Below, one piece after another: positions 61,418-64,000 of a DNA stretch of 64,000 bases; position 1 is the first letter of the stretch; every line of letters begins with the position of its first letter. The translations under genes were made by a program, and so were the position numbers. Origin of the DNA: Phycisphaerae bacterium (lineage in GTDB: Bacteria; Planctomycetota; Phycisphaerae; UBA1845; UTPLA1); NCBI GenBank assembly GCA_019636475.1, contig JAHBXN010000001.1, forward strand, positions 62,001 to 126,000, given 5' to 3'. The notes below the pieces were generated by a model. It was not told the DNA's origin. It did no database searches and worked only from the letters and a program-made list of their open reading frames with translations.

Positions 61418-64000
61418 ATGGCAAAGACCGACTCAAAATCCTACGACCCGGCGGCGGTCGAGAAGCCGCTCTTCGAATACTGGGAGGGCGCCGGCCACTT
61501 CAAGGCCCAGCCGCGCGGCAGCGCCCCGCCCTTCTGCATGGTCATTCCGCCCCCCAATGTCACCGGAGCGCTCCACCTCGGCCACGCGCTGAACAACACG
61601 CTCCAGGACATCCTCATTCGCCACCGGCGGATGCAGGGTTTCAACACCTTCTGGCTCGTCGGCACCGACCACGCGGGCATTGCCACGCAGGCGACGGTCG
61701 AGAAGACGATCCGCAAGACCGAGGGCAAAAGCCGCCACGATCTGGGCCGCGACGAACTGGTCCGGCGCATCTGGGACTGGAAGGCGAAATACGGCAGCCG
61801 CATCGTCGAGCAATTGAAGCTGATGGGCTGCTCCTGCGACTATTCGCGCGAGCGGTTCACGCTGGACGAGGGCTGCGCGAAGGCGGTGCGCGAGACGTTC
61901 TTCAAGCTCTTTTGCGACGGGCTGATCTACCGCGGCAAGCGGCTGGTGAACTGGGACACGGAGTTGCAGACCGCCGTCGCCGATGACGAGGTGTATCACG
62001 AGACGGTCAAGGGCCATTTTTATCACCTGAAGTACCCGATCGAGAATCCGCCGCCCGGCGGGCCGGCGTTTGTGCACGTCGCCACGACGCGGCCCGAGAC
62101 GATGCTGGGTGACACGGCCGTGGCAGTCCATCCGCGGCCGGATGTCGCGCTGGACAGGGCCGAGGCCGCCCTGCGCGAGAAGCTCAAAAGCGCGCCGGAA
62201 AAAGAAAAAGCGGACCTCGCGGCCCAGATCGACGCGATCATCGAGCGCCGCACGGCGATCCTGCCCGCGCTGCTGAAACTGCGCGACCTGGCCAAGGCCG
62301 GAGCGAAGATACGACTCCCGCTCACGAACCGCATCATCCCGCTCATCCTCGACGAATGGGCGAAGCCGGAACTCGGCAGCGGCTGCGTGAAGATCACCCC
62401 GGCCCACGATGCCAACGACTACGAGGTCTACAAGCGCCACCCCGGGATCGGGATCATCAACGTCCTGACGGCGGACGGCAAAATCGCGGAAGTGGTCGAG
62501 CTGGATGGCAGTGCCAACCCGGCGTCACCCGCGTATGCCGGTCTCAAGTTCGCGACGGCCGGGCGCGAAAAAGTGGTGGCCGACCTCACCGCCGGCGGCT
62601 TCATGGAGAAGATCGAAGACCGCCAGATCGAGATCGGGCATAGCGACCGCAGCAAGTCGATGATCGAGCCGTTTCTCTCGGATCAATGGTTCGTGAAGAT
62701 GGGCGACCTCACCGCCGGGGAGGCGGCCCGCATCAGCCCCGGCCCGTTCCGCGACTATCTGGATGGGCACTCCGATGCGCAGGAATTGCCGGATTCCGCC
62801 GGACAAGGCCCTTCGGCGGCCTCCGGGAGCCCTTCGGCGGCCTCCGGGAGCCCTTCGGCGGCCTCCGGGAGCCCTTCGGCGGCCTCCGGGAGCCCTTCGG
62901 CGGCCCGGCGCAGCCCGCTGCCGGAACAAATAACCCACTTTTCATCGCAAAAAGTGGATGATTTGTCGCAAAACATGTCAGATTCGGCGCAAAACTCAAA
63001 TGATTCGTCGCAAACATTGCAGGATTTGGAACTAAAATCACTGCTTTTGTCACAAAAGCAGGATGATTTGGGACAAAACTCGACCGATTCGGGACAAATG
63101 TCGGCAGATTCGGTGCAAGGTGGCCCTGTGGCGCCGCGCCGCGGTACTGCGGCGCCGCGCCGCGGTACTGCGGCAGCGCGCCGCGGGCCTGCGGAGGAGC
63201 GCCAGGAGGACGCGGCCGCGCAAAAAATGCCCGGCCTGGCCCAGTTCGCCATCGACGCGGTGGCCGATGGCCGCGTCAAGTTTCACCCCGACCGCTACGC
63301 GAAGACCTACATCGACTGGCTCAGCGAAAAGCGCGACTGGTGCATCAGCCGCCAGCTCTGGTGGGGGCACCGGATTCCGGTGTGGACAGGCAGGACTCCC
63401 GCTCAAATCGGCGCTTGGGGTGTTAAGCCGGATAAGCTAAAAAAATTATCCGTCGAGTATTTCATCCCTGATGACATCGTGCCTGAAGTCAAGAATACGA
63501 CGATCCCGGAGACAAGCGGAGATAACGCAGCTCGCACTTGGTTTGTGTGCCTGCGAGGCGAACCCAATGCGGACGACTTGAAGATCCTTGAAGAAGCCGG
63601 CTTCACGGAACGAGACCCCGACGTCCTCGACACGTGGTTCTCCTCGGCGCTCTGGGCGCACTCGACGCTGGGCTGGCCCGAACCGCAGCGGTATGACAAC
63701 CTGCTCGCCACCTTCTACCCAACGAGTGTCTTGTCCACGGCACGCGAAATCATCACGCTCTGGGTCGCCCGCATGGTCATGTTCGGCCTCTACAACCTCG
63801 GAAAAGTGCCCTTCAAGGACGTGGTGATTCACCCGGTCATTCAGGATGGCCAGGGCCGCAAGATGTCGAAGACGCTCGGCAACGGCGTCGACCCGGTCGA
63901 CATCATCGACAAGTACGGCGCGGACGCCCTGCGCTTCACGCTGGCCGAGCTGGCCACCGAGACGCAGGACATCCGCATGCCGGTGACGAAGGAGCGGCAG
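61418..64000 (+). CDS. valS: Valyl-tRNA synthetase, N-terminal 861 residues, with repeat insertions
   Basis: Open from the ATG at 61418 to the window end. Class I synthetase: PPPNVTGALHLGHA with HLGH at 53-56, editing domain VATTRPETMLGDTAVAVHP, DWCISRQLWWGHRIPVW, DPDVLDTWFSSALW and KMSKTLGN (815-818). It charges tRNA-Val and edits misacylated threonine. Between QWFVKM (from about 423) and FAIDAV (from 610), where other ValRS have about 15-20 residues, lie some 185 residues. Most of the excess consists of three tandem arrays with a 7-residue period (465-499, 508-570, 571-598). A second stretch of about 73 residues, between IPVW and ERDPDVLD, has AT-richer codons than its surroundings. The frame stays intact throughout. 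No ribosome site is obvious before the ATG. Confidence 0.95.
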   Translation, partial: MAKTDSKSYDPAAVEKPLFEYWEGAGHFKAQPRGSAPPFCMVIPPPNVTGALHLGHALNNTLQDILIRHRRMQGFNTFWLVGTDHAGIATQATVEKTIRKTEGKSRHDLGRDELVRRIWDWKAKYGSRIVEQLKLMGCSCDYSRERFTLDEGCAKAVRETFFKLFCDGLIYRGKRLVNWDTELQTAVADDEVYHETVKGHFYHLKYPIENPPPGGPAFVHVATTRPETMLGDTAVAVHPRPDVALDRAEAALREKLKSAPEKEKADLAAQIDAIIERRTAILPALLKLRDLAKAGAKIRLPLTNRIIPLILDEWAKPELGSGCVKITPAHDANDYEVYKRHPGIGIINVLTADGKIAEVVELDGSANPASPAYAGLKFATAGREKVVADLTAGGFMEKIEDRQIEIGHSDRSKSMIEPFLSDQWFVKMGDLTAGEAARISPGPFRDYLDGHSDAQELPDSAGQGPSAASGSPSAASGSPSAASGSPSAASGSPSAARRSPLPEQITHFSSQKVDDLSQNMSDSAQNSNDSSQTLQDLELKSLLLSQKQDDLGQNSTDSGQMSADSVQGGPVAPRRGTAAPRRGTAAARRGPAEERQEDAAAQKMPGLAQFAIDAVADGRVKFHPDRYAKTYIDWLSEKRDWCISRQLWWGHRIPVWTGRTPAQIGAWGVKPDKLKKLSVEYFIPDDIVPEVKNTTIPETSGDNAARTWFVCLRGEPNADDLKILEEAGFTERDPDVLDTWFSSALWAHSTLGWPEPQRYDNLLATFYPTSVLSTAREIITLWVARMVMFGLYNLGKVPFKDVVIHPVIQDGQGRKMSKTLGNGVDPVDIIDKYGADALRFTLAELATETQDIRMPVTKERQ
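62810..62914 (+). repeat. 21-bp tandem repeat, 5 units, in valS
   Basis: Five units starting at 62810, 62831, 62852, 62873 and 62894. The first four are identical at the DNA level and encode PSAASGS; the fifth encodes PSAARRS. The identity of the units points to recent expansion. Confidence 0.95.
62939..63127 (+). repeat. 21-bp diverged tandem repeat, 9 units, in valS
   Basis: Units begin at 62939 and then every 21 bases to 63107. They encode D-L/S-x-Q-x-x-x heptads (FSSQKVD, DLSQNMS, DSAQNSN, DSSQTLQ, DLELKSL, LLSQKQD, DLGQNST, DSGQMSA, DSVQGGP). Gln at position 4 is CAA in eight of nine units. The array is clearly AT-richer than the rest of valS. Confidence 0.9.
63128..63211 (+). repeat. 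21-bp GC-rich tandem repeat, 3-4 units, in valS
   Basis: Starts without a gap after the previous array. Units at 63128, 63149 and 63170 encode VAPRRGT, AAPRRGT and AAARRGP; a decayed fourth (63191-63211) encodes AEERQED. Confidence 0.9.

Follow-up and report, generated by a model that had tools for sequence, protein, structure and literature searches.

Three adjacent 21-bp tandem arrays inside the valyl-tRNA synthetase gene of a Phycisphaerae bacterium

Three arrays with one period in valS

The valyl-tRNA synthetase (ValRS) gene, valS, of a Phycisphaerae bacterium carries three adjacent tandem arrays that differ in sequence and share a unit length of 21 bp. This raises the question of where such arrays came from, why they have one period, and whether the enzyme uses or tolerates them. 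The window, that is, the whole stretch of DNA analysed, is 64,000 nucleotides long. The valS gene occupies positions 61418..64000 of its forward strand and runs past the window end; the frame stays open from 61418 up to that end, and the open frame in the full contig amounts to 1216 aa. A model search of the genome revealed one valS, and the other, much weaker matches are read as the IleRS and LeuRS paralogues. A second intact valS, which the initial annotation had named as a finding that would speak against its reading, was looked for and not found, and the gene is the sole valS of the genome.

The arrays lie on the + strand between the sequences QWFVKMGDL and PGLAQFAIDAV. Array 1 (62808..62912) consists of four identical units, GCCCTTCGGCGGCCTCCGGGA, and a diverged fifth, encodes the heptad PSAASGS and is a recent expansion. 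Array 2 (62920..63118) is made up of about 9.5 diverged, AT-richer 21-bp units round the dyad core TTYGTCGCAAAA, with the heptad D-x-x-Q-x-x-x; it contains the palindrome CACTTTTCATCGCAAAAAGTG at 62936-62956 and, as read in the sequence, the 21-bp palindrome CTGCTTTTGTCACAAAAGCAG at 63041..63061. Array 3 (63126..63203) has about 3.7 GC-rich units, CTGCGGCGCCGCGCCGCGGTA, and the heptad APRRGTA. TRF reported period 21 at 62808-62905 (100% matches), at 62941-63026 and 63065-63113 (both diverged) and at 63126-63203. Array 2 can be read in register with no indels across 62920-63118, which gives about 5, 9.5 and 3.7 units in the three arrays.

Identity at lag 21 across 62798-63218 was 0.66, compared with about 0.22-0.35 at the neighbouring lags. 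Against codon shuffles, the lag-21 z reached 16.6 over the full region; arrays 1, 2 and 3 gave 10.2, 7.7 and 7.3, respectively. The three adjacent heptad arrays described in the initial annotation are therefore real. Its account of one near-identical, one diverged and AT-richer, and one GC-rich array also agrees with the measured GC contents of 0.82, 0.43 and 0.85 (0.64 for valS). The period is common to the three arrays and the phase is not, the offsets being 133 and 318 bp.

The ValRS loop is an insertion hot spot

By prediction, the insert (62795..63214 of the + strand, ValRS residues 460-599) forms a disordered loop between the exit strand of the editing domain and a helix at residues 607-616. 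In an AlphaFold2 model built with 30 sequences, pLDDT was below 50 at residues 460-599 and 23-43 over most of them, and the near flanks reached 82-95. A low-confidence helix at 513-549 was the only one in the otherwise disordered insert model. The best PDB match was 1gax, the T. thermophilus ValRS. Alignment placed the insert at residues 364-366 of that enzyme, which has no extra residue there, directly after the strand that returns the editing domain to the catalytic core. The position at the editing/catalytic junction, proposed earlier, was thus confirmed.

The same loop was compared in 78 ValRS, namely the present enzyme and its relatives, the nearest of which have about 71-74% ValRS identity. 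The spacing from QWF to WC was 35-67 residues in 67 of them and 77-337 in the remaining 11, among them the present enzyme. This alignment, which the initial annotation had recommended, revealed that the long inserts are mostly unrelated to one another. The loop is an insertion hot spot that tolerates many unrelated inserts.

In relatives, its occupants include REP palindromes, REPINs and other tandem repeats. Inverted REP pairs were found at loci L024, L028, L064 and L074, single REPs at L018, L046 and L070, GTAG-type palindromes at L093, a REP pair enclosing an 18-bp THNQPH array at L216, and shorter palindromic inserts at, e.g., L110. A common linker extension (EEEAARVQTPFL...LPGLAQ) is present in L017, L018, L024, L027 and L028, with inserts exactly at the loop, mostly REP-like. 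In two species, the loop contains an in-frame, REP-flanked Y1 transposase domain of REP type: L064 (5895-6926, spacing 337 residues) and L074 (5790-6662, 284 residues). Both domains scored above the Pfam Y1_Tnp cut-off, and their match to NCBIfam REP_Tyr_transpos was below the whole-protein cut-off. A third such Y1/RAYT domain was noticed in L213 (G019:C4:135300-140500), in a different ValRS loop and followed by a tandem REP array; in all three planctomycetes, REP sequence surrounds the domain. REPs inside coding regions, including those of tRNA synthetases, are already known (PMC3733652); in the part of the literature covered, no description of an in-frame RAYT in ValRS was found.

The REPs within the relatives' valS are dispersed families of their host genomes. 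The sequence CGGGCTTCAGCCCGCG occurs in 35-85 copies in each of five REP-rich genomes, with 1-4 control matches, and GAGCCGCGACCGTNAGGGAGCGG in up to 155 copies in relatives' genomes, with none in controls. The present genome has 0 copies of either. In 1.6 Mb of it, no high-copy palindrome was found, and no 14-mer exceeded 9 copies, masked N runs aside.

Separate from the arrays, ValRS has a hypervariable cassette at 63386..63613 (+), between WWGHRIPVW and DPDVLDTWFSS (D.DVLDTWFSS). The cassette was also seen in the pairs L077/L078, L057/L058, L064/L216 and L117/L123. Orthologues have about 81-87% DNA identity on either side of it, and the similarity is gone exactly there (L077 5892-6149). It is common to distant species (L075/L090, E=1.6e-26), its domain is common to 22 of 212 pairs with core identity of at least 70%, and it is nearly missing from L106/L108. 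This variation resembles domain swapping at the Zn/CP end. In a single-contig genome (L222, G002:C1:2412772-2415299), valS is broken into two frames past the cassette, by either a frameshift or a sequencing error.

Dispersed 21-bp arrays and an unnamed gene family

The present genome was scanned for arrays over 2.4 of its 4.4 Mb. A search for further 21-base arrays in coding regions had been suggested together with the first description of the locus. In the scan, strong 21-bp arrays were found on contig C1 at 357k and on contig C4 at 264k and 106k. The first place (C1:357310-358535) has three different arrays beside a member of an unnamed gene family, the second (C4:264340-264533) also lies beside a member of that family, and the third (G000:C4:106436-106665) is a homogenised array just 3' of asnS, the asparaginyl-tRNA synthetase gene. 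After valS, asnS is the second tRNA-synthetase gene in contact with a 21-bp array. A GGC-type period-21 run was located at C2:199.8k. Besides valS, the strong arrays are mostly in DNA that looks non-coding, and no array of period 20 or 22 was found in the 2.4 Mb scanned.

Coding tandem repeats in the scan had periods of 12, 15, 18, 21 and 36. Since coding DNA favours such multiples of 3, a 21-bp period by itself says little within a gene. The non-coding arrays of exactly 21 bp speak against the reading frame as the only reason for the unit length. The initial annotation had offered either a mechanism favouring 21-base units or selection for seven-residue steps. The mechanism gains support from the strong, mostly non-coding period-21 clusters and from the lack of neighbouring periods in the scan, as well as from a period conserved across the phylum upstream of the unnamed family; selection for seven-residue steps is not supported, as discussed below.

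The unnamed family encodes proteins of about 225 aa and has five copies in the present genome (G000:C4:263505-264176, C4:55970-56638, C4:252275-252925, C1:357803-358462 and C11:47248-47907). By eye, the proteins have a helical N-terminus and an FnIII-like C-terminus. Searches against Pfam, NCBIfam and PDB sequences gave nothing significant, and no DNA-binding fold was recognised. Relatives have multiple copies of the family and many broken or decayed fragments of it; one complete genome has 7 copies. A search of 241 Verrucomicrobiota genomes, run without a positive control, gave no member.

Periodicity in the 750 bp upstream of 32 family genes from 18 genomes was compared with that in 280 control pieces, which were ValRS flanks of relatives, not whole genomes. 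The strongest lag was 21 or 42 for 23 of the 32 genes and for 34 of the 280 controls. Strong lag-21 signals were obtained for 16/32 genes vs. 1/280 controls (p=4e-17); with the present genome left out, 13 of 27 genes were strong (p=1e-14), in 10 of 17 other genomes. The arrays lie 120-580 bp before the family start codon, and the unit sequence is different at every family locus. In relatives, 21-bp periodicity was also seen at a few loci outside the family, namely L066, an acidic coding repeat, and L092, a 7-bp repeat. The latter (L092 6180-6263, in valS of another member of Phycisphaerales) is a tandem array of CGAACGACCAACGA encoding heptads in the STLGWPEP loop. Taken together, 21-bp arrays of locus-specific sequence form a dispersed class in the genome and the phylum, usually non-coding and with a strong tendency to lie upstream of the ~225-aa family.

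Two family loci of one complete genome, L301 and L305, lie 0.86 Mb apart and have 84% DNA identity over 1111 bp, with unrelated flanks. The shared 1111 bp starts at the array and stops about 40 bp past the stop codon. The similarity is limited to array and gene, and the two were thus duplicated together, as a unit of ~1.1 kb, in at least one genome.

Many arrays have unit cores with dyad symmetry, e.g., GAACATGTTC, AGTATAAAAAATACT and GACAG..CTGTC (combined p 7e-9), the array regions for this analysis having been picked by eye from periodic stretches. Among the valS arrays, the p value for a dyad core was 0.003 for array 2, 0.24 for array 3 and 0.997 for array 1. Homogenised arrays (valS array 1, asnS and L306) have no dyad. 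Covariation of the arms between array units was negative overall, with low values only in L312 and valS array 1, in the latter because its units are nearly identical. As a result, the palindromes of array 2 come down to two clear ones and the dyad core.

When the valS insert was searched against the genome at the DNA level, 30 bp of array 2 (62927..62956, +), which include CACTTTTCATCGCAAAAAGTG, matched G000:C12:11569-11598 at 29/30 positions (E=8.8e-7). The match falls at the start of array 2 and at the start of the C12 array, a diverged 21-bp array in an intergenic place 3' of another gene. Its lag-21 identity is 0.47 and its lag-42 identity 0.44 against a background of about 0.25 (z 7). This match, the single link of the valS arrays to another array, together with the dyad core, suggests that array 2 most likely belongs to the dispersed class. 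Arrays 1 and 3 had matches elsewhere in the genome no better than chance, and their membership in the same class would follow from period and adjacency only. The idea that the units are high-copy repeats of the present genome was ruled out by genome searches. Within the order, 113 other genomes yielded neither the peptide nor the DNA of array 2; its DNA pattern was not found in 391 other genomes of the phylum, and there were no plasmid matches. No family member lies near valS, or at the asnS-3' and C12 arrays in the stretches read.

Origin of the valS arrays

The valS arrays resemble several known systems in part. REP/REPIN elements with their RAYT (TnpA-REP) (PMC3733652) are likewise short repeated DNA in frame in essential genes, including those of tRNA synthetases, and the same ValRS loop of relatives carries both REPs and RAYT domains. 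Unlike the REPs in the relatives' valS, which are high-copy imperfect palindromes of 20-40 bp, with RAYT domains in L064, L074 and L213, the valS arrays are direct 21-bp tandems of low copy number and locus-specific sequence, and no RAYT was found in the window insert. Intragenic minisatellites (VNTRs) also consist of homogenised in-frame tandem units; here, however, three unrelated units of one period stand side by side, and their counterparts in non-coding DNA are linked with one gene family. Rickettsia palindromic elements are translated repeats in permissive sites of conserved proteins, as are the valS arrays, but they are palindromes that all belong to a single sequence family and are dispersed, whereas each valS array has its own unit. 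Plasmid iterons and phased operator arrays are direct repeats about two helical turns long that precede a gene and have dyad cores. The family arrays share these features; they differ in being chromosomal, at many loci, with a different unit at each and no Rep-like or DNA-binding protein recognised. PARCEL repeats are presumably mobile, tandemly arranged repeats in coding DNA that have dyad symmetry; their amphipathic unit of 25 residues occurs in membrane or unassigned ORFs (PMC2996958). Identity with them was rejected on unit length, the disordered valS unit having 7 residues. Compared with the arrays of the ~225-aa family, the valS arrays have the exact 21-bp period and lack the gene directly downstream, and array 2, unlike arrays 1 and 3, has sequence in common with another array.

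We consider it moderately likely that the three valS arrays are 21-bp tandem arrays of the dispersed class that were inserted into a surface loop of ValRS and are tolerated there. Replication slippage in a permissive valS linker could instead have made all three, the shared period being coincidence plus frame selection. This is rather doubtful: the preference of coding repeats for multiples of 3, local repeats of other period in other ValRS (18 bp in L216, 7 bp in L092) and the lack of relatives of arrays 1 and 3 elsewhere fit slippage, but three adjoining unrelated arrays, all of period 21, the non-coding arrays at other loci and the match of array 2 to an intergenic array do not. It is unlikely that the arrays are DNA-level elements in which phased, iteron- or operator-like sites bind protein every two helical turns and affect a nearby promoter, and which in valS would work as DNA within the gene. 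The distance to the family start codon and the dyad cores, including that of array 2, would suit such sites, whereas the family has no recognised DNA-binding fold, homogenised arrays have no dyad and arm covariation is negative overall. Improbable, too, is a decayed REP or REPIN whose remnant this lineage expanded into arrays. The linker extension common to five relatives with mostly REP-like inserts and the tandem REPs in L064 and L213 point that way; against it stand array sequences that are not REP-like and the absence of both tested REP families and of any high-copy palindrome in the portion of the genome searched.

Selection of the heptads as a protein spacer that would tune editing, whether as a coiled coil or as a flexible tether, is very unlikely, even though the frame is maintained over 400 bp at the editing/catalytic junction. 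In the coiled-coil test, PSAASGS and APRRGTA (arrays 1 and 3) had no hydrophobic a/d positions, with pLDDT below 50, and the model is disordered at low confidence. Relatives have no insert or unrelated, non-heptad sequence at the same site, and the same kind of array exists outside coding DNA. The insert peptide probably has no heptad-specific function. An assembly artefact, of which no sign was found, can be given hardly any credence. Such errors typically arise at tandem repeats and the genome is in 18 contigs, but the arrays are short or diverged, the frame is intact, the contig is 819 kb long and the 421-bp region is unique in the genome. Ordinary reads should span the arrays, as the perfect one measures 98 bp and the other two are imperfect.

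If the arrays are a tolerated insertion, a seed from the dispersed class would have reached the valS loop and survived there, as 21 bp equal seven codons and keep the frame, and the loop lies outside the core. Slippage or unequal crossing-over may then have enlarged and homogenised the arrays, of which array 1 would be the youngest and array 2 the oldest. The insert would be neutral, translated and kept. As a tentative extension, a dispersed module of ~1.1 kb, a 21-bp array with locus-specific dyad units plus the ~225-aa protein, possibly spreads in planctomycete chromosomes and leaves or seeds arrays elsewhere, even in an essential gene. It would be a two-part system of repeat and gene parallel to REP-RAYT and unrelated in sequence. 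The ValRS loop is a landing pad in an essential synthetase for repeats and even for a whole in-frame transposase domain, and a class of 21-bp arrays goes with a gene family that is unnamed and decays fast. The valS and non-coding arrays provide a system for asking how the length of a tandem unit gets fixed, and the array-plus-gene unit, functional or selfish, is easy to search for. At positions 773-824 of the window, we also noticed a 21/27-bp repeat, rich in Asn, close to the N-terminus of an ORF that is Gly-rich and lipoprotein-like.
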